This document shows positions 8,067 through 36,201 of a stretch of 64,000 nt of DNA, in pieces. Each line of letters opens with the position of its first letter. Within the stretch, counting starts at the first letter, position 1. A program made the position numbers and the translations under genes. A model generated the notes under the pieces. That model saw nothing but the letters and a program-made list of their open reading frames with translations, ran no database searches and had not been told where the DNA came from. The stretch is from Saccharomycodes ludwigii (lineage: Eukaryota; Ascomycota; Saccharomycetes; Saccharomycodales; Saccharomycodaceae). Location of the stretch: positions 1 through 64,000 of the forward strand of contig NC_060203.1 in the NCBI RefSeq assembly GCF_020623625.1, in the 5' to 3' direction.

Positions 8067-9479
8067 ATGACTCCTACTGATAAAAAGTCCTACGTTTTCC
8101 AATGCAAAATTAACGAAAAACCTGCTCAATCTATAGCCGGTAAAGGCACTCGTATCACCATTGAAAAGGATGGTAAAATATATAGTGATATTATTGATGC
8201 CGTTACTGGTGCTGCTGTTGGTGCTTTGGGATGGGGTGATGAAGACATCGTCGATATTATCACTGAAGCAGCCAAGACCTCTACCTATTCTTTCCCATCT
8301 TTGATTGGTAACAAACAATCCGAAGAACTGGCTAAATTTTACATCGACAATTCCCCAAAGGATGCATTTGCTTCTGCTTTATGGTGTTGCTCTGGTTCGG
8401 AAGCTAATGAAAGTTGTATGAAAATCATGTACCAGTACTGGTTAGAACGTGGCAAGACAAAAAAAACAAAATTTATTTCTAGAAAGAGCTCTTATCATGG
8501 ATTTACTATTGGTTCTCTATCTATTGCTGACAATGCTCGTGTGGTTGCCTTTAAGGATATCTTATTGCCAGAAACTCAATGTCTAAAGATGCCGGTTTGC
8601 TACCCATACAGATTCCAAAAAAAGGGCCAAACCGAAGCTGAATATGTCCAAGAATTACTAGGTAACTTGGAAAAGTTGATTGTTGATAATGATCCCGAAA
8701 CTATTATTTCTGTTACTGTTGAGACTTTGCCGGGCTCATCCATAGGCACTGTTCCGCCACCAAACGGATACCTACCAGGTATTCGTGCCTTGTGCAACAA
8801 ATACGATATCTTGATGCACTTGGATGAAGTCATGTGTGGCACTGGTAGATCGAATCCAAACGGTGGATTGAATTGCTGGGAAAACTTCATGCCATTGAAC
8901 CAAGGTCCAGATTTGCAATCAGTTGGTAAGGCTTTGGGATCTGGCTATGTCACTATTGCTGGTGTTTTGATCAGTCCAAAGGTTAAAGATGCATATGTTA
9001 ATGGCAGTAACAGCGTCGTTGGTTCACACACCTATGCCTCCCATGCATTTAACTGTAGTGTTGCGTTAGGTATCCAAAAAAAAATCATTGAAAAAGGTTT
9101 GACTAAGAACATCTTCAAAATGGGCAACTTGATGGGTGAAACTTTGAAGAAGAAGTTACTAGCTAACGATAACATTGTTGGTGATGTCAGAGGTATTGGT
9201 GGGTTTTGGTCGTTGGAATTTGTTAGGGACAGAAAGGGAAAGATTAGCTTTGCTCCCAAATTAGATGTTGGCCACAGATTTCAAGCTGTGTGTTTTGAAA
9301 ATGGCATAAATGTCATGGGTATGACTGGCACCTATGATTATACTACAGGGGAAGGTGATGTTGCACTGTTGGCGCCATCATTTATCATTACTGAGAACGA
9401 TGTCGAGGAAATTGTTGAGAGAGTTGTTAAATCAGTCGATGAGTTGACTGCTGTTTTGAAAAGGGAAGGTGAATTTTAA
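8067..9479 (+). CDS. Class III PLP-dependent aminotransferase
   Basis: A 470-residue protein with the full layout of class III (omega-amino acid/acetylornithine/GABA type) aminotransferases. It has SGSEAN at 109-114, SYHG at 142-145, a DEVMCGTGR segment with Asp253, which would bind the PLP pyridine nitrogen, and VGKALG with Lys288 as the likely Schiff-base lysine. It has no signal peptide, so it is probably cytosolic. It is not the usual yeast UGA1, CAR2, ARG8 or BIO3; it resembles the uncharacterised fungal aminotransferases often found near chromosome ends. The amino donor cannot be read from the sequence. The ATG at 8067 starts the conserved fold at normal length. It is the most telomere-proximal intact gene. 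Confidence 0.88.
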   Translation: MTPTDKKSYVFQCKINEKPAQSIAGKGTRITIEKDGKIYSDIIDAVTGAAVGALGWGDEDIVDIITEAAKTSTYSFPSLIGNKQSEELAKFYIDNSPKDAFASALWCCSGSEANESCMKIMYQYWLERGKTKKTKFISRKSSYHGFTIGSLSIADNARVVAFKDILLPETQCLKMPVCYPYRFQKKGQTEAEYVQELLGNLEKLIVDNDPETIISVTVETLPGSSIGTVPPPNGYLPGIRALCNKYDILMHLDEVMCGTGRSNPNGGLNCWENFMPLNQGPDLQSVGKALGSGYVTIAGVLISPKVKDAYVNGSNSVVGSHTYASHAFNCSVALGIQKKIIEKGLTKNIFKMGNLMGETLKKKLLANDNIVGDVRGIGGFWSLEFVRDRKGKISFAPKLDVGHRFQAVCFENGINVMGMTGTYDYTTGEGDVALLAPSFIITENDVEEIVERVVKSVDELTAVLKREGEF

Positions 9480-17681: not shown

Positions 17682-20600
17682 TTAAAATAAATTGAAAAAT
17701 AAAACAAATAAAGTAAAGGACATCTTGAAAGTCGATATTCTGTTTGAAACAGCACCAGCTTGGTAAATAGAAATTAATCCACTAGATCCTGGTTGAGATT
17801 GAATACTTTGAACTTCAATACCAGTTGTACTAGAAACAGTTTCTGATTGAATAGTAGTAGTAATAACTTTGCTACCAGATGTGGTCTTGGTAATAACATT
17901 GTCGGAATTACCAGAGTTACCATTGGCACTCTTGGTAACAGTGGTATAAACAGAACCAGAAGAAATAGTCTCGAAATATTCACTAGCATTGCCTGGAGAA
18001 CCTGATCCGTTTTCATTATTATTGTTTGGAACAATAGTAGATGTAATAACAGATGTGATGGTACTACCTGATGTAGTGTACACGCTAGTCTTGGTAACAG
18101 TAACTGGTGTATTACCAGTTTCGGAACTACCAGATCCACCATTGTTGTTGTTGTTATTTGGAACAATAGTAGAGGTGATAGTAGCAGTAATGGTGCTACC
18201 AGATGTAGTGTACACACTAGTCTTAGTAACAGTAACTGGTGTATTAGCAGTTTCGGAACTACCAGATCCACCGTTGTTGTTGTTGTTGTTTGGAACAATA
18301 GTAGAGGTGATAGTGGCAGTAATGGTACTACCAGATGTGGTAAACACACTAGTCTTAGTAACAGTAACTGGTGTATTACCAGTTTCGGAACTACCAGATC
18401 CACCATTGTTGTTGTTGTTATTTGGAACAATAGTAGAGGTGATAGTAGCAGTAATGGTGCTACCAGATGTAGTGTACACGCTAGTCTTGGTAACAGTAAC
18501 TGGTGTATTACCAGTTTCGGAACTACCAGATCCACCATTGTTGTTGTTGTTATTTGGAACAATAGTAGAGGTGATAGTAGCAGTAATGGTGCTACCAGAT
18601 GTAGTGTACACACTAGTCTTAGTAACAGTAACTGGTGTATTAGCAGTTTCGGAACTACCAGATCCACCATTGTTGTTGTTGTTATTTGGAACAATAGTAG
18701 AGGTGATAGTAGCAGTAATGGTGCTACCAGATGTAGTGTACACGCTAGTCTTGGTAACAGTAACTGGTGTATTACCAGTTTCGGAACTACCAGATCCACC
18801 ATTGTTGTTGTTGTTATTTGGAACAATAGTAGAGGTGATAGTAGCAGTAATGGTACTTCCAGATGTAGTGAATACACTAGTCTTAGTAACAGTAACTGGT
18901 GTATTGGAAGTCTCAGAACTAACGGAATAAACCTCGGAACCGGAATTGTTAGAACCACCATTATTGTTGTTGCTATTGTTTGGAACAGTGGTGGTAGTAG
19001 CATCGCATGTGACAATAGTCGAGGTTATGGTTCTGCCAGATGTAACAATCACAGTAGTTCTTGTAACACTAGAAGGCAATCCAGGTGTCTCAGTAGTTGG
19101 ATTAACTGGAGAAACAGTTTCAGAAGTAAAGGTAGTACCTGGAATAGTAGTCAATGGAGATGATTTAGAGCTAGTAGTATTGAAATAACCAAATCCTGGT
19201 GTTTCAACGTAAATGATAGTGGAAGTGGTAGACAATCCATTAGAGCCAGTGGTAGTAAATATAGTAATTAAATAAGTTGAGGTAAATGAACCAGTCCAAA
19301 AAGTATAAGTGGTACTAACACCATTAAATTCTGGAGTCTCAACTGTGTAGGTGGTAGAGGTGGTTGGTTTGCCATCAGTACCAGTAGTTGTAACTACAGT
19401 AGTACCAATAGTGGAAGTGTATGTACCAGTCCATGGTGTGTACGTAGTTGTAACACCGTTGGTTTCTGGAGTCTCAACTGTGTAGGTGGTAGAGGTGGTT
19501 GGTTTGCCATCAGTACCAGTAGTTGTAACTACAGTAGTGCCAATAGTGGAAGTAATTGTACCAGTCCATGGAACATAAGTGGTGGTAACACCGTTGGTTT
19601 CTGGAGTCTCAACTGTGTAAGTGGTAGAGGTGGTTGGCTTACCATCAGTACCAGTAGTTGTAACTACAGTAGTGCCAATAGTGGAAGTAATTGTACCAGT
19701 CCATGGAACATAAGTGGTGGTAACACCGTTGGTTTCTGGAGTCTCAACTGTGTAGGTGGTAGAGGTGGTTGGTTTGCCATCAGTACCAGTAGTTGTAACT
19801 ACAGTAGTGCCAATAGTAGATGTGTAGGTACCAGTCCATGGAGTATAGGTAGTTCTGACACCGTTGGTTTCTGGAGTCTCAACTGTGTAGGTGGTAGAGG
19901 TGGTTGGTTTGCCATCAGTACCAGTAGTAGTAACTACAGTAGTGCCAATAGTGGAAGTGTATGTACCAGTCCATGGTGTGTACGTAGTTGTAACACCGTT
20001 GGTTTCTGGAGTCTCAACTGTGTAGGTGGTAGAGGTGGTTGGTTTGCCATCAGTACCAGTAGTTGTAACTACAGTAGTGCCAATAGTGGAAGTAATTGTA
20101 CCAGTCCATGGAGTATAGGTAGTTGTGACACCGTTGGTTTCTGGAGTCTCAACTGTGTAGGTGGTAGAGGTGGTTGGTTTGCCATCAGTACCAGTAGTAG
20201 TAACTACAGTAGTGCCAATAGTGGAAGTGTATGTACCAGTCCATGGTGTGTACGTAGTTGTAACACCGTTGGTTTCTGGAGTCTCAACTGTGTAGGTGGT
20301 AGATGTGGTTGGTTTGCCATCAGTACCAGTAGTTGTAACTACAGTAGTGCCAATAGTGGAAGTGTATGTACCGGTCCATGGTGTGTAGGTAGTAGTAGTA
20401 CCTTCAACTTCTGGAGTCTCAACTGTGTAGATAGTAGAGGTGGTTGTAATACCATCTGCACCAACACTGGTGGTAACACTGGTACCAATAGTGGAAGTGT
20501 ATGTACCGGTCCATGGTGTGTAAGTGGTAGTAGTACCTTCAACTTCTGGAGTCTCAACTGTGTAGATGGTGGAAGTAGTTGGAATACCATCTGATCCAAC

Positions 20601-23273
20601 ACTGGTGGTAACACTGGTACCAATAGTGGAAGTGTATGTACCAGTCCATGGTGTGTACGTAGTTGTAACACCGTTGGTTTCTGGAGTCTCAACTGTGTAG
20701 GTGGTAGAGGTGGTTGGTTTGCCATCAGTACCAGTAGTTGTAACTACAGTAGTGCCAATAGTGGAAGTAATTGTACCAGTCCATGGAGTATAGGTAGTTG
20801 TGACACCGTTGGTTTCTGGAGTCTCAACTGTGTAGGTGGTAGAGGTGGTTGGTTTGCCATCAGTACCAGTAGTAGTAACTACAGTAGTGCCAATAGTGGA
20901 AGTGTATGTACCAGTCCATGGTGTGTACGTAGTTGTAACACCGTTGGTTTCTGGAGTCTCAACTGTGTAGGTGGTAGATGTGGTTGGTTTGCCATCAGTA
21001 CCAGTAGTTGTAACTACAGTAGTGCCAATAGTGGAAGTGTATGTACCGGTCCATGGTGTGTAGGTAGTAGTAGTACCTTCAACTTCTGGAGTCTCAACTG
21101 TGTAGATAGTAGAGGTGGTTGTAATACCATCTGCACCAACACTGGTGGTAACACTGGTACCAATAGTGGAAGTGTATGTACCGGTCCATGGTGTGTAAGT
21201 GGTAGTAGTACCTTCAACTTCTGGAGTCTCAACTGTGTAGATGGTGGAAGTAGTTGGAATACCATCTGATCCAACACTGGTGGTAACACTGGTACCAATA
21301 GTGGAAGTGTATGTACCAGTCCATGGTGTGTAAGTGGTAGTAGTACCTTCAACTTCTGGAGTCTCAACTGTGTAGATAGTAGAGGTGGTTGTAATACCAT
21401 CTGCACCAACACTGGTGGTAACACTGGTACCAATAGTAGATGTGTATGTACCGGTCCATGGTGTGTAAGTGGTAGTAGTACCTTCAACTTCTGGAGTCTC
21501 AACTGTGTAGATGGTGGAAGTAGTTGGAATACCATCTGAACCAACACTGGTGGTAACACTGGTACCAATAGTGGAAGTGTATGTACCGGTCCATGGTGTG
21601 TAAGTGGTAGTAGTACCTTCAACTTCTGGAGTCTCAACTGTGTAGATAGTAGAGGTTGTTGGAATACCATCTGAACCAACACTGGTGGTAACACTGGTAC
21701 CAATAGTGGAAGTGTATGTACCGGTCCATGGTGTGTAAGTGGTAGTAGTACCTTCAACTTCTGGAGTCTCAACTGTGTAGATGGTGGAAGTAGTTGGAAT
21801 ACCATCTGAACCAACACTGGTGGTAACACTGGTACCAATAGTGGAAGTGTATGTACCGGTCCATGGTGTGTAGGTAGTAGTAGTACCTTCAACTTCTGGA
21901 GTCTCAACTGTGTAGATAGTGGAGGTAGTTGGAATACCATCTGAACCAACACTGGTGGTAACACTGGTACCAATAGTGGATGTGTATGTACCGGTCCATG
22001 GTGTGTAAGTGGTAGTAGTACCTTCAACTTCTGGAGTCTCAACTGTGTAGATAGTAGAGGTGGTTGTAATACCATCTGCACCAACACTGGTGGTAACATT
22101 AGTACCAATAGTAGATGTGTATGTACCGGTCCATGGTGTGTAAGTAGTAGTAGTACCTTCAACTTCTGGAGTCTCAACTGTGTAGATGGTGGAAGTGGTT
22201 GTAATACCATCTGCACCAACACTGGTGGTAACACTGGTACCAATAGTAGATGTGTATGTACCGGTCCATGGTGTGTAAGTAGTAGTAGTACCTTCAACTT
22301 CTGGAGTCTCAACTGTGTAGATAGTAGAGGTTGTTGGAATACCATCTGATCCAATACTGGTGGTTAAACTAGTACCAATAGTAGATGTATATGTGCCAGT
22401 CCATGGTGTGTATGTGGTGGTAACATCTTCAGCAGCTGGACAATATGACTCTTCTTCATCAAAGGTAAATATATAATTGGTCATATCATCAAGAAGAGTT
22501 CCATCGGGCAAACTTATTGTAAAAAACAAACTTGCTTTAGTAATTGCGTTTGAAAATACAATTCTTATTGGATAGTATGACCCAGCGTTCATTGTTATTT
22601 TAGCCACAGCATAATTTTGTATTCCCACATGCCAATTTTTAATTGCATCCACCAAAAAATTAGTTGTTGATGCAGTAATATCATTTTGCTGACAACATCC
22701 AAATGCATTTTCGCCGAACAACAAGCCAGCAGAATCATCAACATATCCTAATGTAAAGGTGTAAGAACCAGTTTGTGGTGCTAAAAAGTAACCAGTAAGT
22801 TCCATTGTAAAATTAGTGAATGTTGTATTGTAATCAAAAATTACTGGTAAAGTGTAAGGAAGTTGGTTATCATTATAACAAAGTGTAGCATCATGTCCAT
22901 ATTGATATGGACAATGCCAATTTGTTCCTTGTTGATCAGGTTCACCGTTACAGAGGTAGTACTGAGATGGATCATTTTCATTATATTGACAAGGAAATCC
23001 TGACTGAATTATGACGGAGGTAATACCATTTTGCTCGTGATAAGGTTTTGAATTTTGATAATAGCCATATGCCATATATTCTCTACTTGTATAAGTTGTT
23101 GTATCGTAAATATTATAGGGAAACCATCTCACCTTAAACCCATTACTAGGTTTTGAAATCGGATTACAACCACCATTGGAATCAACCGCTGCTTGGACAT
23201 AAATGTTTTTTGACCATTGTAATAAAAAAAGGACTAATATTAAAACCCCTTGTTTATAATTACTAGTTAACAT
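17682..23273 (-). CDS. FLO-type cell-wall adhesin with PA14 lectin domain
   Basis: A 1863-residue flocculin. An N-terminal signal peptide (about 1-28) precedes a PA14/Flo lectin domain (about 30-280). That domain has the vicinal Asp179-Asp180 (the DcisD calcium and sugar-binding pair of Flo proteins) and the paired cysteines of AFGCC (191-194). About 24 tandem 45-residue Ser/Thr units of the Flo1 type (TTTYTPWTGTYTSTIG) follow, then seven 44-residue units ending in Asn runs and GGSGSSET. A hydrophobic C-terminus (MSFTLFVLFF) looks like a GPI-anchor signal. The protein should be exported, heavily O-mannosylated and fixed to the cell wall for flocculation or surface adhesion. It is longer than Flo1 (1537). 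The subtelomeric site and long upstream gap suit a silencing-controlled FLO gene. The exact sugar specificity cannot be read. Confidence 0.93.
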   Translation of the reverse strand: MLTSNYKQGVLILVLFLLQWSKNIYVQAAVDSNGGCNPISKPSNGFKVRWFPYNIYDTTTYTSREYMAYGYYQNSKPYHEQNGITSVIIQSGFPCQYNENDPSQYYLCNGEPDQQGTNWHCPYQYGHDATLCYNDNQLPYTLPVIFDYNTTFTNFTMELTGYFLAPQTGSYTFTLGYVDDSAGLLFGENAFGCCQQNDITASTTNFLVDAIKNWHVGIQNYAVAKITMNAGSYYPIRIVFSNAITKASLFFTISLPDGTLLDDMTNYIFTFDEEESYCPAAEDVTTTYTPWTGTYTSTIGTSLTTSIGSDGIPTTSTIYTVETPEVEGTTTTYTPWTGTYTSTIGTSVTTSVGADGITTTSTIYTVETPEVEGTTTTYTPWTGTYTSTIGTNVTTSVGADGITTTSTIYTVETPEVEGTTTTYTPWTGTYTSTIGTSVTTSVGSDGIPTTSTIYTVETPEVEGTTTTYTPWTGTYTSTIGTSVTTSVGSDGIPTTSTIYTVETPEVEGTTTTYTPWTGTYTSTIGTSVTTSVGSDGIPTTSTIYTVETPEVEGTTTTYTPWTGTYTSTIGTSVTTSVGSDGIPTTSTIYTVETPEVEGTTTTYTPWTGTYTSTIGTSVTTSVGADGITTTSTIYTVETPEVEGTTTTYTPWTGTYTSTIGTSVTTSVGSDGIPTTSTIYTVETPEVEGTTTTYTPWTGTYTSTIGTSVTTSVGADGITTTSTIYTVETPEVEGTTTTYTPWTGTYTSTIGTTVVTTTGTDGKPTTSTTYTVETPETNGVTTTYTPWTGTYTSTIGTTVVTTTGTDGKPTTSTTYTVETPETNGVTTTYTPWTGTITSTIGTTVVTTTGTDGKPTTSTTYTVETPETNGVTTTYTPWTGTYTSTIGTSVTTSVGSDGIPTTSTIYTVETPEVEGTTTTYTPWTGTYTSTIGTSVTTSVGADGITTTSTIYTVETPEVEGTTTTYTPWTGTYTSTIGTTVVTTTGTDGKPTTSTTYTVETPETNGVTTTYTPWTGTYTSTIGTTVVTTTGTDGKPTTSTTYTVETPETNGVTTTYTPWTGTITSTIGTTVVTTTGTDGKPTTSTTYTVETPETNGVTTTYTPWTGTYTSTIGTTVVTTTGTDGKPTTSTTYTVETPETNGVRTTYTPWTGTYTSTIGTTVVTTTGTDGKPTTSTTYTVETPETNGVTTTYVPWTGTITSTIGTTVVTTTGTDGKPTTSTTYTVETPETNGVTTTYVPWTGTITSTIGTTVVTTTGTDGKPTTSTTYTVETPETNGVTTTYTPWTGTYTSTIGTTVVTTTGTDGKPTTSTTYTVETPEFNGVSTTYTFWTGSFTSTYLITIFTTTGSNGLSTTSTIIYVETPGFGYFNTTSSKSSPLTTIPGTTFTSETVSPVNPTTETPGLPSSVTRTTVIVTSGRTITSTIVTCDATTTTVPNNSNNNNGGSNNSGSEVYSVSSETSNTPVTVTKTSVFTTSGSTITATITSTIVPNNNNNNGGSGSSETGNTPVTVTKTSVYTTSGSTITATITSTIVPNNNNNNGGSGSSETANTPVTVTKTSVYTTSGSTITATITSTIVPNNNNNNGGSGSSETGNTPVTVTKTSVYTTSGSTITATITSTIVPNNNNNNGGSGSSETGNTPVTVTKTSVFTTSGSTITATITSTIVPNNNNNNGGSGSSETANTPVTVTKTSVYTTSGSTITATITSTIVPNNNNNNGGSGSSETGNTPVTVTKTSVYTTSGSTITSVITSTIVPNNNNENGSGSPGNASEYFETISSGSVYTTVTKSANGNSGNSDNVITKTTSGSKVITTTIQSETVSSTTGIEVQSIQSQPGSSGLISIYQAGAVSNRISTFKMSFTLFVLFFNLF
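17986..18910 (-). repeat. 132-bp intragenic adhesin repeat array, 7 units
   Basis: Seven near-identical 132-bp units encode TPVTVTKTSV, TTSGSTIT and an Asn run followed by GGSGSSET. Variation is limited to single-residue swaps (G/A/S before NTP, Y/F in the middle). The last unit is altered at its end. Confidence 0.9.
19185..22424 (-). repeat. 135-bp intragenic adhesin repeat array, 24 units
   Basis: Each unit is 135 bp. Two unit types alternate in blocks: one with SVTTSVG and EVEG, and one with TVVTTTGTDGKP and ETNG. Five consecutive units (two of the first type, three of the second) are duplicated with an exact 675-bp offset; for example, the same local variant occurs at 20281 and 20956. 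The last unit (19185-19320) is degenerate. Confidence 0.9.
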
Positions 23274-25170
23274 TCCCGTTAATTACCAAAAGTTGTTTTT
23301 CTTTTTGAATTTTTTTGATTTAATTTATACTTGGAAAATTTGAATTATTAAATGTTGAAAATAGAAATTAAAAAAACTAAATACTCAAAAATGTTTCTAT
23401 TTATATAATAATTTTCTTTTTTATATCTATTAAAAATTTAAAATCAATTTGTATCTTAATTTTAGTTTTATTTTTTTAAACGCAAAAAAAATAATTTCCA
23501 TTGTGTTTTAAGATAAAAAAAAAATTCAGATACAATTGATTTTATTTCAATTGTCTGTTTTCACTTACAAAAATCATACAGTAAAATAAATATCATAATG
23601 TAATATTTATATTTTCAATTTTGTATACATTTTTCGATTTTTTAACCAGAACGAATGTAGAATACTTTAATTGTTTTCACTTAAAAAAAATTTTTTTTTA
23701 TTAGGGTTAAATTATTTAGTGTTAATTAAAAAAGGCTTTCAACATGAATAAAAGAATTAAATTGTGTGAGTAAATTTCAATAAAAATCACATATTTACTA
23801 TATATATAATCACTTTGCGGCTTTAATTGTTATTTTACAGTTTATTTTCTTTTTGTTTCTGAAATACCCCAACTTTCTTTTGTGAAAATAGTGTGGTTTT
23901 GACCAATTCGAGAAACATGAAAAGAAAAGTGTTCCATTATATTTATATTGTTAATAATTTTTCAACAAACTTTTTTGTTTTTTTTCTTTTTTGATGATGT
24001 GCCGTTCGTCATTTTCCAAAAATGAAAAAAAAAAATTTTTTTTGTTTTTAAGCGTGAACATTTTATATACGACATAATTTTTTTTTCCTTTTCCATTTTT
24101 CTGTTCTGCATGAAGGAAAAAAAAAAATATTAGACAGACTAAGAAATTAACACACACGGAGATATTTATTTGCGCGCGTAAATTAAATGAAAAAGAAAAA
24201 AAAATCGGATATTATATAGATGAGTATTATGCAAAGAATCGGAATAACTACTAAATTCCCCATCAAACAGTTTAGTGGATTATATCAGAATATAACCAAA
24301 CACTGCTGACAAATAAAAGTTAGACAAGTTCCTATTAAATTATCCCTCTTTAAAAAATTCAGATTTTACAATTATATTATAATTTGTGATAGTAACATAG
24401 CATCTAATAAGTGGCCATGTTGATATTTATTTATAAGTTATTAACGTTCTAAAAACTTGGCAAAAAGAAAATATTGGGGAAAATTGAACTCATATAACTA
24501 AACATATCTTTTCTATTTAGTTTATCATGCATTATATGTGTTTTTAGTACTCTATACTAATTCTTCTTTCCCCTTCTATAATATTTAAATACTTAATATT
24601 ATATATAGAACATTTTGATTGATATATTTTTAATCTCAATGATTCGTCTTTTAGGTAACAATCATACACTTCTTTCTGTTAAACTAAGTTTAATAACCTC
24701 TATTTTTATTAAAAATAAAAAAGTTTTAAAAAAAAACTTGCTATTAAAACAATACTGAGCAAAAATATAAATGCTCATTTAATATATATTTATATTTACC
24801 TATGACTAAGATAATATATATATCATTCCTCGTCGAGATTTTTTTATGATTGTTATTTTTTTATTTAAAAAGACCTAATATATTTCGTTATTATCAGAGC
24901 TTTGAATATTTATAATGATAAATATTTGTTTATAACAATAATAATAATAGCGATTGTATCTATATAAAGCTTATAATTAAAAATAATACTACAAGTCTTT
25001 TTTTTTAAAGCACTGATTTAAAAATAGCAATATAAAATTTGATGTAATGTAACAAAAAACGTTAACTCTTCAACTATTTCCACGGAATTTAAAAATGGGT
25101 CATCTTGAAAATACATAAAAATTTTACAATAAAAAAAAAAAGAAAAAAAAAAAAAAAAAAAAGGAATTTT
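23274..25170. other. Gene-free upstream region of the adhesin
   Basis: About 1.9 kb of AT-rich DNA, no supported gene. As the region upstream of a minus-strand FLO gene it is likely a long promoter, as FLO genes often have. A TTAGGGTT (Tbf1-type) motif lies at 23701-23708. A stretch near 24560-24650 faintly recalls the LTR core seen at 51200, too weakly to call. Confidence 0.45.
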
Positions 25171-25179
25171 TGGATAAAA

Positions 25180-26745
25180 ATTTATATTTCCTAACTCTTT
25201 TTTTACCATATTCAAAGACTTCTTGGTGCTCAAAGTTTTTTTGTTTTGTGATAAAAACCCTAATAAAAATACTTGCAGCTAATTAGCCTTATTCAAAAAA
25301 TGTGCATTAAATGCTACGTAATGGTCATCAGTCCTTAAAGTCCAATAATCATGGATTGTTTGAATAGAATTGTCTTCCATAACCTTCGTGGTAAATCATT
25401 GAATAAACTGATCAACATTAAAGTCAATATTTCAATAATTGAGAACAATATTAAATTCCTTATTCATAGGTGTGAATAATTTTAAAACCGTCCTTTTTTC
25501 ATACTTTTCATTCATTTGTGCTACTAGAGTATGAAATTATGTATATTTACGCGAATACAAAATGGACAAATCGTTACAGCTTTTAGCAAGTTCCTCAAGT
25601 GTTAATTTGCCTGTTCGTCCACTATTTTCAAAAATAGCAACTGGTGAATTTGTATTAACTAGTAATGTTGTTAATTTTTGCGATATAGATTTATCCCTTA
25701 TTTCTTATTTTTTGGCCAGATAAGATGCTGGGTATTTTTTATTATTAACTAAATGCACAAATTTAAGATGGTTTGTTAAGGCGGAATTTGATGGTCCTTT
25801 TCTTTTTAATGAACGTTTAGTATTAAACCCAGGATGTTTACAAGTGAAATAAAATAGATCCTTATTACCAATTAACAATTCAGTTGCCAATTCTTTTTTT
25901 AATGTTGGCTTGAAATCCTGATATGTCCATGTTTCCCATTTACTGTTTAGTGCCGAATGTTTTGGATAACATCTCAAAGCTAGTACTTGTGATTCAGTTA
26001 ACCCAGTATATTCAAATTCAGTGGTATTTTTTTTTCCCTCTTGTTACTGCTAACCAAGGCAGTACTAGTGATGGCAGTGGTGTGAATAGTATCAGTGTTG
26101 TTAACAGAATTATCAACAATGGTTTCTTCCAAATCATTCAAAGGAGCGGTACTAGCATTTGTAATAGCGATTGTTGTCTCAGATACACCTTCGTTGGTGG
26201 CATCAATGTCTTGAAGTGTTTCATAATCTTTCTTAGACTGTGTAACGTTATTTTGTGACATTTCTATCATATACTTTTTCTCTGGACATGATACGTGTTG
26301 TATTAATGAAGCTTTCATTCCAATTTATTTAAAAATTAGTATAGGGAAAAGATTTGGCGTTAAAACAAAAAAAAGGTATTGATAAACCTTGATATTAATT
26401 TTTTTTTTTTTTTAGTGATAAAGCTTTTAACCTATTAATAATGTGAACGAATTTATATAGAGAAAATGAGAAAATGCAAGGTTTTATGACAAAAAATGAG
26501 GAAATACAAAGTTTTTTCATATATTTTGGCAAGGTTATCGTATTTTGTCCGACAAGGGATTAGAAAGGATTACGGAATAAAGAATTGATCATGTTTTGCC
26601 TACACTTTTTATCCGCCCTAAATATTGTTTTATATATTCGCGTGGACGCACTCTTGGTCCACCGGTTTACAAAATTACGTACAATCGGACTATCGCTTCC
26701 ACTTGAGAATTTAAAATGAGAAATTGTCTTCCCATTCTTTTTTGA
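25180..26745 (-). pseudogene. Degraded hAT DNA transposon, copy 1
   Basis: Minus-strand remnants of a hAT transposase. An acidic/Ser-Thr N-terminal frame (25998-26318) is cut from the next frame at a T-run near 26028. The next frame (25705-25977) carries a BED-finger-like segment with NHLKFVH, but with only one of the expected two cysteines. It ends at a stop after YLAKK. Further downstream, near 25270-25380, the catalytic-fold motif HDYWTLRTDDHYVAFNAHF is readable in another frame, which matches the hAT RNase H-like core. The rest of the core and the C-terminal hATC domain are absent. It shares its upstream region and an almost identical 561-bp tract with copy 2. Confidence 0.65.
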
Positions 26746-28078
26746 AAACCCTAAGAATGCCTAAATGTAGATGAAGATAAGGATTATATATATATAATCA
26801 AAAAATTGAATAAACCTTTTAATAAGACGGTTGAAGACATCACGATCGATGTCATATCAAGACATTTAGAAACATTAGATACTACATTTAGTATCGATCA
26901 TGGTCCCCATAAAATGCATGCTAAAAAGACTAAAAATCTACCCACCAGCTTCCTATATGGTAGTGGGAAAGTGGATAACATAAAGTATGGTGGTGAACAG
27001 TAACAAGACATTTCAATGATGTCCCAATACAATGACCCACCATCTGCAAGGACAAGAAGCCAATTATCACAAAAAAAAAGAGCAGCAGGGCCAAAGTGAT
27101 AGTGGTTCAAATAAAAATTGTAGTCATCACCATAGTACTCGAAGTGACAGGACCAAGTGTTAGTGTCAGTTTTCAGATATGTCTAGTGGATTAGAAATAT
27201 GGAATAAATACAGATACCTTGTGTTGCGTGGCGCCGTCAGGTTACCTAAAAGGAAATATCTCATCAGTGGTTCAACCAAATCAAATTAGAGCAATCATAA
27301 ATTTAAGAAAACCTTTTCCTATTATTAATTTTCTTTCTTTTTTTCTTTCTTCCCCCTCAGATAAAATTTAGTCCTTCACGTGGTGTTTATAATCTTAGGA
27401 AATTAAATAAATTATTTATTTTATTATCATTATTATTGTTATTATTATTCTTGGTTCTATTTGTTTCTTTTGATTTTATTTTTCGACAAAAAAGGAAAAA
27501 AAGGGTAGTTGTTTTGTGGTAGGGGTAAAAAAAAAAAAAACACTTTATAAAAATAGTCGAGCCCTAATTGCTGTTGCTGTTTTAATCATATGCAATTTTT
27601 GTTTGTCAGATTAAAGCGTAGTGATTATTACTAATGCAGGATATTGAGCCTAAATCATTAAAGCGTAAAAAAATTATTCTAGACTTTTTTTTTTTTGTTA
27701 TCTCTTCAAAAGCAAGTTCCGTATGATATTCAATATGGAAAGAAACCACATAGTAATAAATGCTTGAGGCATATTAGCTGTATTTTATATTTCTTCTCTT
27801 AAGATCATATCCTTGTTTATAATCCTATTACTAATACTATTTCTTTTCTTCTTTCAATTTCTAAAAAAAAAGCGGTTTTCTTAAGATCACAGCTTTGTTT
27901 ATAATCCTATTTCTTTTTATCATTTTTTTTTCGTTATATAAATAGTACAATACAAAAAATTAATTTAATAGTAGCTCCTTCTGGATTTGCCTTTTTCAAT
28001 ACTTAGCAATGCATACTAGAATTAAAAGCTGGTAATAAATAAAACAAAATCAAATAACCATACAAATATATAGTAATA
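26746..28078. other. Intergenic DNA upstream of the metallothionein
   Basis: A short open stretch at 26806-27100 (NNDPPSARTRSQ-like reading near 27030) looks protein-like but is broken and unassigned. An AGCCCTAA motif is at 27560-27567. A segment with CTTAAGATCA and TTGTTTATAATCCTAT occurs twice, about 82 bp apart (27797-27826 and 27880-27910). A TATATAAATAG box lies at 27935-27945, about 135 bp before the ATG, a plausible core promoter. No convincing copper-factor (Ace1/Amt1) site was found. Confidence 0.45.
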
Positions 28079-28753
28079 ATGTGCGCTAGTAAATGTTGTA
28101 ATACTGAAAAAAATATAAAGACATGTGAATGTTCAAACAAGATAAGCAAAGGTCCTGGATGCGTCTCTGAAGGTAACAAATTCGCTGACTGTGTCTGCGA
28201 AAGTGGTAAATTCGGTTGTGAAGATGGTAAATGTGTCTGCAAATGTGTTTGTAAGAATGGCAAATGTGTTTGTGAAGGTGGTGAATGTGTCTGCAAATGT
28301 GTCTGTAAGGATGGCAAATGTGTTTGTGAAGGTGGTGAATGTGTTTGTGAAGATGGAAAATGTGTCTGCAAATGTGTTTGTGAAGGTGGTGAATGTGTTT
28401 GTGAAGATGGAAAATGTGTCTGCAAATGTGTTTGTAAGGATGGTAAATGTGTTTGTAAGGATGGTAAATGTGTTTGTGAAGATAAAAAATGTGTCTGCAA
28501 ATGTGTTTGTGAAGATAAAAAATGTGTCTGCAAATGTGTTTGTGAAGATGGCAAATGTGTTTGTAAGGATGGAAAATGCGTCTGTAAATGTGTTTGTGAA
28601 GGTGGTGAATGTGTCTGCAAATGTGTCTGTAAGGATGGCAAATGTGTTTGTGAAGATGGAAAATGTGTCTGCAAATGTGTTTGTGAAGGTGGTGAATGTG
28701 TTTGCAAATGTGTTTGTGAAGGTGGTGAATGTGTCTGCAAATGTGTTTGCTAA
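28079..28753 (+). CDS. Giant Cys-rich repeat protein, probable metallothionein
   Basis: A 224-residue protein with 69 cysteines (31%). Residues 1-47 are a non-repeated head with nine cysteines (CC, CEC, CVC). Residues 48-224 consist entirely of 19 modules: eleven of 11 residues (xxxxCVCKCVC) and eight of 7 residues (xxxxCVC), where xxxx is EDGK, KDGK, EGGE, EDKK or KNGK. Aromatic residues are nearly absent and there is no signal peptide. CxC spacing, Lys next to Cys and the lack of hydrophobic core residues are metallothionein hallmarks, and Cu(I) clusters are the likely ligand. Yeast Cup1 has 61 residues and Crs5 69; Cryptococcus CMT2 (about 180) is the nearest size class I know. A secreted EGF-like protein is excluded by the lack of a leader. 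The gene lies between two hAT fossils in direct orientation. Confidence 0.85.
   Translation: MCASKCCNTEKNIKTCECSNKISKGPGCVSEGNKFADCVCESGKFGCEDGKCVCKCVCKNGKCVCEGGECVCKCVCKDGKCVCEGGECVCEDGKCVCKCVCEGGECVCEDGKCVCKCVCKDGKCVCKDGKCVCEDKKCVCKCVCEDKKCVCKCVCEDGKCVCKDGKCVCKCVCEGGECVCKCVCKDGKCVCEDGKCVCKCVCEGGECVCKCVCEGGECVCKCVC
28220..28750 (+). repeat. Modular 21/33-bp coding repeats in the metallothionein gene
   Basis: Nineteen modules of either 21 or 33 bp, built on TGTGTCTGC or TGTGTTTGT codon pairs. Several modules are identical at DNA level, so unequal exchange or slippage probably drives the expansion. Because of the repeat, three other frames also stay open, but they are not genes. Confidence 0.9.
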
Positions 28754-29537
28754 TTTGCAAAAAAAGGTTCAAGGTGGATTTTTTCCCTCCATATCCAGCT
28801 TTATTTCAATATTTTCTTTGTACCCATTTTCTTTGATTTTGCCATTTTGCTTTAAATATAAATCAGTTTTATTTATTAATATAATTTGATCGTTAATGTC
28901 ACATGTTGCTCTTATTTTATGGTTCTGCCGTTAGTCAATGAGTCAGCAACGTTTAATATTATTATTTTCTGCTAATAATTATTAATGGTGGTATTACCTT
29001 TTTTTTTTTTTTTTTTCTCGTCTCTAAAAAATATAAAATAATAATAAGTTTATACCTATGTCTTTATATATCATGGAAAGTGATTTACTCAAATTATTAT
29101 TTGCTCAAATAATCAGTTCTTTATATAAGAGCAGTTTGAAAATATTTTAATATATTTTATTACACCTCAAAGGTATAACCCTAAATAATATATTTGATTT
29201 ACACCCCATTTTGCCTTTGTCTTTTTAAAAAAGCTTTTATTTGTTTCCATGAAATATTGAGTCTATAAAGGAAGTCCGTGATAAAGACGGAAATAATATC
29301 AAATGGAGTTAGGGTGTAGACCGTGCTGTGTTGACCGCAGTTGTGCGCGAGCTAGCAGGCATTCTTAAGAATACGTGGGAAACTCATGACGCGAAAAAAA
29401 AATACCTTTAAAAAATATTAGTAACGAGCAAAAAAATATTAGTAACGAGCAAAACAATACTATAACAACAACAAATCTTGTGTACAATATATATCAAAGT
29501 TATTACTATACAGATAAAGTTGAAATAATAATTTTTC
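28754..29537. other. Gene-free stretch after the metallothionein
   Basis: AT-rich DNA with no credible ORF. A roughly 25-bp direct duplication containing AATATTAGTAACGAGCAAAA lies near 29408-29455. It includes an AACCCTAA word near 29175. Confidence 0.45.
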
Positions 29538-32000
29538 TTAATCTATCAAAAAAAAAATGACTTTATTTGAAATACTAATATTATTATAGCTAATGGCAGC
29601 TTTGTTTTTACTATTAGTGGAAATGGGCAGATTAGTGTTACTAGGAGAAGAGTAAGTCAAATCAGAATTGGAGGTAGAATTAGAAGTTGAATTAGAAGTA
29701 GAATTAGAAGTGGATTCAGAAGTGGAATTGGAAGTATAAGTACATCCAGATATAGAATTTGAAGTCATAAAACTATAATTATTGCCTGTTCCATAAAAAA
29801 ATTCTTTATAAATCGTTTCAAAATTTGAATTTATCGCAGGCAAATTTTCACAGGTATTATTATTCATATCAACAATGTTATTATTAACAAGTGCCGTACT
29901 ATTAAAATTGGTATTATTATTACCATCATCATCGTTACTATTAAATATTGCGACATGGTCCTCCAAATTTGAATTTATTTCACCCATTTCAGCAATCTTA
30001 AAAAAATCATTTAGTAATTTTACAATTATTTCCGATTCATTATCAGAATTACCAAATTCCAGATCAATAAATTTATAACTCGTCGATCCAAGTAAGGAAG
30101 TGGCAACTCTTAGCAAGTCATTGTTATTATACTTACTAGAATATTTCCCAAACTGCGCTTTGAAATCTTTTTCTCAATTACTATGTAAAACTTGAATCTT
30201 TATTAATCTATCAGTGATAGGTTGTAAAAACTTTAGCGAATTCATGAGCGAAACCATAACCAGAGGATAATGAGGTTCATTTTGAGAATAAAATAAAACT
30301 AAGTTTTGCAATATACTGGTTATTTTAAGCAATTCTTTCATAATTTGAAAATCTTTTTCTGTAAAAGCATCAGCCTTAATATCAATCGCTTTATATTCTG
30401 GGAGTACCAAAAACTCCTTTAATCCAAGGGCTCCATTTAAGGCATCATGCAATGAATTCCATCAAACATGGATATCCACTCTTTAGGTAATATCTCCCTC
30501 TTTAATTTTTGTAGAACAATATTTCTAAACATGTGGGTATGTTTAGGTGATCTTTTAAAACAAGTGTGGTGTATATTTATTTGGTTTAAAACATCTAAAA
30601 TATCATCTTTATCATATTCTTCATCATCAAAAGTACATTCCACTTCACCATTTGCTAATATTTCAGGATCAATGCTCTCATATTCTTCCCTTTCGTCACC
30701 TCCAATATTATCTTGATAATATTTGTTTTCTGGCCTTTTTTTCTCTCTCTTTAAAGTTAAACCAAAAAATGATTTTGCAAAATAAAGAAGTACAATATAA
30801 AAAACATCCATTATAGTTAGTTTTGATATCTACAAAGGCATCATCTAAATGAGTGCAAATAAATTTACTTGATTTTATCGCAACCGCAGCATTATCAGAT
30901 GTAAAATAAAGAGAATTCTTGGATAAAAAGCTATATTTCTTGACTATCTGTTTCCAACATTCAAAAGCCTCTTGATGATCAAATTTTTTCTGTGGTCAAA
31001 ACCCTACTAAAAATACCTTCATTTCATTAGCCTTGTTTAAAAAATGTGCATTAAATGCAATATAATGATTACCAGCCTTTGAGATCCAAAAATCATGACA
31101 TATTCCAATAAAATTATCTTCCACGGTGTTCCTAATAAAGTGTTGAATAAATCGTTACAGCTTTTAGCAAGTTCCTCAAGTGTTAATTTGCCTGTTCATC
31201 CACTATTTTCAAAAATAGCAACTGGTGAATTTGTATTAACTAGTAATGTTGTTAATTTTTGCGATATAGATTTATCTCTTATTTCTTATTTTTTGGCCAG
31301 ATAAGATGCTGGGTATTTTTTATTATTAACTAAATGCCCAAATTTAAGATGGTTTGTTAAGGCGGAATTTGATGGTCCTTTTCTTTTTAATGAACGTTTA
31401 GTATTAAACCCAGGATGTTTACAAGTGAAATAAAACAGATCCTCATTACCAATTAACAATTCAGTTGCCAATTCTTTTTTTAATGTTGGCTTGAAATCCT
31501 GATATGTCCATGTTTCCCATTTACTGTTTAGTGCCGAATGTTTTGGATAACATCTCAAAGCTAGTACTTGTGATTCAGTTAACCCAGTATATTCAAATTC
31601 AGTGGTATTTTTTTTTCCCTCTTGTTACTGCTAACCAAGGCAGTACTAGTGATGGCAGTGGTGTGAATAGTATCAGTGTTGTTAACAGAATTATCAACAA
31701 TGGTTTCTTTTAAATGAGTCAAAAAAATAGTATTAACACTTACAACAATGTTTGTTGCTTTAAACAAAATATCATTTGTGGTATTAGTGTTCTAAATTAT
31801 TTCATAGTTTCTCTTGGTCTGTAAAATGTTGTTTTACGACATTTTTATTTACTTTTTTGTTTTTTTTTTGTTTTTTTTTTGTTTTTTTTTTTGTTTTTTT
31901 TTTTTTTTTTCCAAATATGGTTTGTTTTGTGTTAAGGAAATTACTAAAAGAAGAGAGAAAAAATTTAACGCTGAGATGCTAATTTAATAAAAGCAAAACC

Positions 32001-34097: not shown

Positions 34098-35126
34098 TCA
34101 ATGTTTCAATGGAACAACTAATCTCTTGAAAGACCCCTCTTCTCTGCATTTTTCTTGGTGAATACCCATCAATCTTTGGGCTTCTAATGGGTCTTCCACT
34201 TCGTTGGGTTCTGGCCATGACAAATATTCATTGGTGTAATTGGACTTGTAATCCAATGGCAAAATCTCCAATCTCTTACCGTACCCAGTAACTTTTTTCC
34301 AATCACGATGCACATTGTACAAAGAACTGGAAAAGTAAGCAAAACATCTTTGGTATTGTTTGTAAGCCAAATCAGTATTCAATTGTGGCTTCAAATCTGT
34401 ATATGTAGCCCAAGATTGTTCTGGGTGGTTCAAAACATCATCAGTGGCCTTTTTAATGGCAATCAAAAACTTTCTAACTTTGTCTCCATTCTTGGCCAAA
34501 AATTCATCATTACAAATGTACAAAATAGTACAGAAACAGCAACAACCCAAACAAGCCAACTTGTCAATTCTCAACATTTGAACATCAGTAACTGGTCTGC
34601 CCTGCTTTTTGCAGTATTCTTCCAATTCCACTTGTTGAATACATTCAATACCAATACCAGCATGAATCTTGCCCTCGATGATATATTTGGCAACATTCAT
34701 ACCACATCTAACAGCAGTGTAGTCGTTTGGTGTCATACCATAATGCTTGGTCAATTCGTCCAATTGGATCTTACCAAATTCACCAACATAACCAATCTTT
34801 TTACCCTTCAAAGATTGGAAATCTTCAGTGATACCGCTGCCTTTCAAGTACAATAACCCAGTGAATGGTTCGTCTAACAAAGAGGCAACAGAAGTAACAG
34901 GGAACCCTCTAGCTTTAGCGGCCAAAGTGTGAATCATAGCTTTCAAACCCATGTCGACTTTACCAGACCCAATTAATTCAGTTACATCGGATGGATTGCT
35001 TGGTTCCAAAATAGCAATATCTAAGCCTTGCTCTTTGAAGTATCCCTTGGTTTGAGCCAAATAAATTGGAATGTGGTATGCAGCAGCTTGCCAGTTAAGT
35101 AAAAAGGTGATTTTATCAGTGGACAT
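34098..35126 (-). CDS. THI5: THI5-family pyrimidine (HMP-P) precursor synthase
   Basis: A 342-residue Thi5/Thi11/Thi12/Thi13-type enzyme, which makes the thiamine pyrimidine (HMP-P) from PLP and its own active-site histidine in a single-turnover, iron-dependent reaction. Lys62 (PLP anchor) and His66 (the sacrificed residue) lie in [12 protein letters not shown]. The CCCFC iron-binding motif is exactly at 195-199, and length matches S. cerevisiae (340). All key residues are present, so it should be active. A TATATAAAGG box on the minus strand (35217-35226) lies about 90 bp upstream. THI5 genes are commonly subtelomeric in yeasts, as here. It is probably repressed by thiamine, though I see no defined control site. 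Confidence 0.97.
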
Positions 35127-36201
35127 TTTGTTCTTGTTTGTTCTTGTTTGTTGATCTTTGTGTTTTTAGAAAGGAAAGGAAAGGAAAGCAAATATCTTGA
35201 TGATAATTATCCATGGCCTTTATATACGTTTCATTTTACATTTTTATTTGTTCATTTCCTCCCCTGTTGAGTAGAAGTATTCAAAAAAAAATAAAAGAAC
35301 GTGGATTATAAATCTTTGTATTTTGAATTTATAAGCTATGCCTTAGAGGTATGTGTGCCTTATTACTGGATTTTATTTTTTGTTAGCATGTTTGTAAAGA
35401 TGTCTAGTTTATTATTCAAATGTTTAAGGCAATTTTTTTTCTTATATTTTTTTTTTTTATTAGGCGCAGAAAAAAAAAATATAAAATTGTGTTGCATAAT
35501 ATTTTGATGTTGTAGGAAAAACCTAAATATACAAAGGAGAATGAATATTTTTTCTTCAAAGTATTTGAAAAAGGTTAATAACAGAGCATAAGAGAATATA
35601 CATGATATACTTTAATATATTGACAAAGTTAGTTGTTTTTTAGTCACTTTTTATATGTAAAGATACACTTGTTTGAATATTATTATAAGGCTATAAGAAT
35701 AAAATAAACTATTAGCAGATTCAAACCTTTTTCATCAATCTCTTAACAAAAAAAAAGGGGTTTGATACATTGCGGTTCGTTAGAATCATAATGCTGTACC
35801 AAAATCTTATTCTTAATATTTAAAATAAGATTTATTGGATTAAATTGGATATAGATTTTTATTCACTTGTTTATTTATAAAAATAATAACAAACACCCTA
35901 AAAAAGGGCAAAGTAAATGTCATCTTTTACAAGCGATAACCCCGTTAAGCACATGCTTAAAATATATTAAATTCTTATTTTTTTTTATTCATTATTACTA
36001 AATTTCCAAAAGAATTTTAGTGATAAACCGATTAAGATACCATGTCACATCTTTTGAGACATTTCTTTATGGAAAATAATAGATATATTAAAAAAAAAAT
36101 CATTTACTTTTATTATCAACTCATATCATACATATAAGCACTTATACACCCATTGTTATGCAAATATATACATAATGCCTGCCTTACGTTCACTTGCTTA
36201 T
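35127..36201. other. Intergenic DNA between THI5 and the 249-residue ORF
   Basis: About 1.1 kb of AT-rich sequence. It contains the THI5 core promoter at its left end. No other gene, RNA or site is supported. Confidence 0.5.

Follow-up and report, generated by a model that had tools for sequence, protein, structure and literature searches.

The budding-yeast metallothioneins (MTs) Cup1 (PF11403) and Crs5 of Saccharomyces cerevisiae are Cys rich, tied to copper, and much shorter than the 224-aa protein of Saccharomycodes ludwigii described here, which is likewise Cys rich and from a budding yeast. Long fungal MTs are known from basidiomycetes, with 257 aa and 57 Cys in TmMT of Tremella mesenterica and 183 aa in CnMT2 of Cryptococcus neoformans (PMC4755600). 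The MTs of N. crassa, CnMT, and TmMT share a seven-Cys box with the spacing [CXC]-X5-[CXC]-X3-[CXC]-X2-C, and the passages of that study consulted here give 5 Cu per 7 Cys for the long fungal MTs, with 40 to 42 Cu on 57 Cys and a maximum of 45 (PMC4755600). Longer MTs occur in animals, reaching 399 aa in Oikopleura and 319 aa in the Alinda 9md/10md-MT (PMC8283569; PMC7084494); OdiMT2 of Oikopleura has 3 to 7 repeat units in different populations, and its capacity tracks repeat number (PMC8283569).

The S. ludwigii protein has 69 Cys and is encoded at positions 28079 to 28753 (+) of the window, by which we mean the whole 64,000-nucleotide stretch analyzed, which forms the left end of contig C4 (1.68 Mb). 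Like TmMT and the C. neoformans proteins CnMT1 and CnMT2, which are high-capacity Cu-thioneins, it is a long fungal protein of repeated CxC-rich units, and it holds more Cys in a shorter chain than TmMT does (69 Cys/224 aa versus 57 Cys/257 aa). The hosts differ (basidiomycetes versus a budding yeast), with no sequence match shown between the proteins, and so does the spacing. TmMT and CnMT boxes have seven Cys separated by X5, X3, and X2 gaps, whereas Cys in the S. ludwigii tract are separated by 1 or 4 residues only, and gaps of 5 or 2 occur nowhere in the 224-aa protein. Compared by description, OdiMT2 and the Alinda 9md/10md-MT are repeat MTs too but are animal proteins, longer, and made of larger domains that are Cd related or bind divalent metals. 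A first-pass annotation of this DNA had singled out a repeat MT this large as unusual for a budding yeast; that judgment is supported but does not extend to fungi in general, given the long modular Cu-MTs of other fungi (TmMT and CnMT2; PMC4755600).

The reading frame, its modules, and its relatives

The frame is open from 28058, 21 bases upstream of its only Met, and needs no intron. It begins with a head of 47 residues and 9 Cys (28079 to 28219, +), which contains the only two aromatic residues of the protein (F, W, Y, or H; 2/224), followed by a tract of 19 modules with 60 Cys (28220 to 28750, +). Eight modules are 7 residues long (xxxxCVC; 21 bp) and 11 are 11 residues long (xxxxCVCKCVC; 33 bp); a KFADCVC unit in the head sits outside this count and would make it 20. 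CVC and CVCKCVC are constant in 19/19 modules, and variation is confined to four-residue linkers that swap charge (EGGE in 6, EDGK in 5, KDGK in 5, EDKK in 2, and KNGK in 1). These dimensions, and the restriction of variation to the linkers, had been read from the sequence in the first-pass annotation and are confirmed here; the host is indeed a budding yeast. From residue 52 onward, the distance between Cys takes two values only, 1 (n = 41) or 4 (n = 18), while over the whole protein the gaps are 1 (43 times), 4 (19 times), and 9 (twice), with 0, 3, 6, and 8 once each. CxC arrangements account for 64 of the 69 Cys, and acidic and basic residues are near balance (36 versus 39). With a very high Cys share (69/224; 30.8%), mostly as CxC, and few aromatic residues, the protein has the composition of an MT in the broad sense. 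Its Cys-rich modular frame is more than chance, since its Cys content (30%) is far above that of the runner-up (13%) among 64 stop-to-stop frames of at least 100 aa in the window and since a shorter version lies at two further genomic places.

Look-ups of the 224-aa protein in Pfam, NCBIfam, and PDB returned no metallothionein match, plasmid records likewise gave none, and PF11403 (Cup1) did not match the protein at an E value of ≤1. A genome search with PF11403 gave 0 matches, and its control likewise matched nowhere. The full query found 2 matches among 7,087 candidates in the protein database, neither of demonstrated yeast origin, and a query with the first 90 residues, used to allow for short relatives, found none at an E value of ≤1 among 134 candidates; the reach of both searches is limited by low complexity and by word seeding. 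The best match (P0002) was a bacterial GrpE protein with a Cys-rich N terminus (E = 1.5e-3; 46% over 28% of the query), which has similar CEDGKC-type repeats but differs by its fused GrpE domain, and the second (P0003) was a protein with weak EGF-like matches. Neither was accepted as a homologue, the similarity being judged one of composition (probably so for GrpE). Three prokaryotic loci (L051 to L053) showed 30 to 34% identity. The N terminus of P0002 carries about ten CEDGKCTC-like Cys-rich units, a peculiar arrangement for a bacterial protein and one that looks like a metal-binding repeat. The protein database is rich in yeasts: a copper-fist query returned 172 proteins, and the names among the 120 listed included Lachancea, Kluyveromyces, Torulaspora, and Hanseniaspora. 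That a database with so many yeast proteins gave 2 matches, neither shown to be yeast, agrees with the protein being unusual for this group. No S. ludwigii protein was named among the 120 listed, so the database may lack the proteins of this species. Genome-wide, triplet repeats and flocculins dominated the places listed for two codon patterns aimed at other CxC genes. Four places considered as a second MT were rejected because their filtered frames look like triplet repeats read in antisense or brief runs of Cys; a second MT may still lie elsewhere in the genome.

Subtelomeric copies one module apart

The S. ludwigii NBRC 1722 genome searched here comprises 12,500,424 bases in 8 contigs, and the published assembly of this strain is described as 12.5 Mb in 7 chromosomes with an N50 of 1,848,403 bp (PMC8567612). 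Three matches to the gene were found, namely, the window gene, a copy toward the right end of C4 (1651479 to 1652117, −), and a copy toward the right end of C7 (784691 to 785329, −), at distances of ~28, ~25, and ~7 kb, respectively, from the contig ends. The C4-right and C7-right copies each encode 213 residues with 65 Cys. Alignment of the copies over the open reading frame (ORF) showed 0 substitutions in 642 bases, and the sole difference was one 33-bp gap: the short copies have a single EDKKCVCKCVC module where the window gene has two in tandem, identical in DNA (28478 to 28543, +). This identity points to the gain of a whole module in the window gene or its loss in the short copies, with module counts taken as assembled; an assembly error in module count may also underlie the difference. 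Over the surrounding DNA, the 12,609 bases aligned between the short copies contain 20 substitutions and 48 gap events; the alignments of these copies with the window copy contain 59 substitutions and 21 gaps in 12,607 bases and 79 substitutions and 47 gaps in 12,576. Because the two short copies are nearer to each other than to the window copy, a single module event would suffice. The natural length variants that had been predicted thus exist, differing by a whole module (224 aa/69 Cys versus 213 aa/65 Cys), as paralogues of one genome.

The window begins with C/A-rich telomere-like repeats, and the gene lies within a subtelomeric block, common to these ends, that extends to window position 35991 and matches C4 right over 16.8 kb at 97.1% and C7 right over 15.1 kb at 98.0%. 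An unplaced subtelomeric contig, C8 (26,468 b), stops at the equivalent of window position 27223, ~0.86 kb before the gene, and its last 3.8 kb have 3 mismatches each to C4 left and C4 right and 13 to C7 right. A fourth copy may thus be absent from the assembly.

Two decayed relics of one hAT-like transposase element flank the gene, at 25154 to 26763 (−) on the left and 29434 to 31849 (−) on the right. None of the six relic pieces beside the gene had a Pfam match above the cutoff. An open relative on contig C3 (a 1203-aa frame; L067:218-3829, −) had a hAT dimerization match under the Pfam cutoff (E = 3.9e-4; 20.6 versus 21.4 bits), and a relative on C2 is split into two frames of 782 and 427 aa. 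Direct repeats of ~710 b form part of the relics: the left one (25568 to 26279, +; 712 b) lies inside the left relic, and the right one (31149 to 31857, +) is 92% identical to it at a spacing of 5,581 b. Exchange between these repeats could delete or multiply a 5.6-kb gene-bearing unit; no tandem array of this unit was seen in the genome assembly. Elsewhere in the window are a 1863-aa frame (17682 to 23273, −) that combines a GLEYA domain with 24 stretches of flocculin repeats, 4.8 kb from the gene, with similar repeats also near other contig ends; a THI5-type pyrimidine precursor enzyme inside the common subtelomeric block (34098 to 35126, −; best PDB match 4h65, E = 1.8e-205); and a subtelomeric class III aminotransferase gene (8067 to 9479, +; Pfam E = 5.7e-55).

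Metal, regulation, and alternative readings

The product of 28079 to 28753 is probably a cytosolic MT that holds Cu(I), perhaps with Cd(II) or Zn(II). Its composition, CxC arrangement, lack of a hydrophobic N-terminal segment (highest Kyte-Doolittle mean of 0.41 for 11-residue spans starting at residues 1 to 40), and three intact copies all argue for a cytosolic MT, and analogy with the long CxC-rich fungal MTs, which are Cu-thioneins, makes copper the most probable metal. What we infer from this evidence is that the protein is expressed, resides in the cytosol, and binds metal, chiefly copper; any advantage of its length is likewise inferred. Cu(I) would be held on a near-unbroken string of CVC pairs, and capacity may step by two or four Cys as 21- or 33-bp modules come or go through slippage or unequal exchange; it may also follow gene copy number in the subtelomeres. 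Arithmetic from the Cu/Cys ratios of long fungal MTs predicts a load of about 48 to 51 Cu(I) per 224-aa chain, with an upper limit of about 54. A stronger proposal, and a doubtful one, is that the uninterrupted CVC string with its two spacings forms a single unbroken Cu(I)-thiolate chain, free of domains, instead of small separate clusters, its capacity being set by module number and subtelomeric gene number, both changed by mitotic exchange; S. ludwigii meiosis is reported to proceed without crossing over.

A Cu(I) buffer also fits the copper resistance of another strain, UTAD17, which was reported to be highly resistant to 2 mM copper (PMC6920815), and the presence of a Cup2/Haa1-type factor in the genome. 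In a screen covering 232 isolates, with S. ludwigii included in its ethanol part, 10 species grew at 1 mM Cu, and S. ludwigii is absent from the 8 of these that are named in the parts consulted, which counts against copper (PMC5597992). Upstream of the gene are a TATA-like box ~140 bases before the start codon (27935 to 27943, +) and two copies of a 54-nt element (27794 to 27847 and 27876 to 27929, +; 78% alike), spaced 82 b apart and 150 to 285 b before the gene. HTHNNGCTGD, which we take to be the canonical Ace1/Amt1 site, was found 0 times on either strand of the 1 kb upstream (0.46 expected). GCTG, presumably the core of copper sites, occurs there 6 times versus 1.96 in 500 shuffles preserving base composition only, and a Cuf1-type pattern, added after the canonical site failed, occurs 4 times versus 0.92. 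Two copper-fist proteins, on C1 and C5, turned up in the genome search. The C1 protein matches Amt1, the activator of metallothionein 1, in its DNA-binding domain (E = 1e-11) as well as proteins named Cup2 or Haa1 and could be a candidate activator of the gene. Haa1 is known for its part in the weak-acid response, so a copper-activating role for the C1 factor is not proven. The C5 protein looks Mac1-like by eye.

It is possible, if unlikely, that this Cys-rich protein buffers thiol or metal but has a main role other than copper handling, serving instead to bind Cd or Zn or to store reduced sulfur. The metal choice is unreadable from sequence, the 1 kb upstream holds 0 canonical copper sites, and S. 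ludwigii is SO2 tolerant (PMC7903802; PMC6920815), all of which would suit such a buffer, but the characterized long CxC-rich fungal MTs are Cu-thioneins (PMC4755600) and GCTG cores are commoner upstream than in shuffles.

We consider it very improbable that the tract is a functionless repeat frame, kept open because its units, with lengths (21 and 33 bp) divisible by three, were copied recently with the subtelomere. Other frames over the tract are also open (211, 239, 247, and 248 aa from stop to stop), and the copies, identical over the 642 aligned ORF bases, are too young for a selection signal, with no substitutions usable for dN/dS. Module-wide pN/pS was 0.20, compared with 0.195 and 1.12 in control frames; because one control equals it, this value is by itself no sign of selection on the protein. 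Codon use is like that of 17 neighboring ORFs, except that Val is only GTT or GTC (32/32) and Glu only GAA (23/23) in modules that are not independent. Against a functionless frame, all 30/30 CVC blocks are intact in five DNA spellings that differ at third codon positions only, the non-repeat head is likewise Cys rich (9/47) and open, and the only ORF difference between copies is an indel of exactly one module.

One-residue gaps between Cys favor metal chelation over disulfides. A secreted or cell wall protein with disulfides, an outcome that the first-pass annotation had named beforehand as contrary to its reading, is scarcely credible: a large GLEYA/flocculin gene lies 4.8 kb off and there are weak matches to LDL-receptor (E = 0.023) and EGF-like (P0003) proteins, but the N terminus has no hydrophobic segment and the gaps suit chelation.

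Novelty and significance

MT length, modularity, and variation in repeat number are known ideas, as TmMT, the longer animal MTs, and the unit variation of OdiMT2 illustrate. Literature on S. ludwigii and metallothionein was consulted in titles, abstract openings, and passages, with most subscription journals outside its coverage, and did not describe this gene; the main text of the UTAD17 genome paper contains 0 words beginning with "copper" or "metal" (PMC7903802). Within that literature, we did not find described the module type, the presence of such a protein in a budding yeast, its Cys count for a fungal MT, or the combination of these with subtelomeric copies.

If it binds Cu as expected, the S. 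ludwigii protein would surpass in Cys number TmMT, which a 2016 description ranked as the longest MT known at that time, and would be built of 2- and 4-Cys modules rather than the seven-Cys box. Paralogues one exact module apart make the relation of module number to metal capacity testable with natural forms. Situated near three chromosome ends in a species also known as a wine-spoilage yeast, the MT-like gene is a candidate to explain the reported copper resistance of winemaking S. ludwigii.
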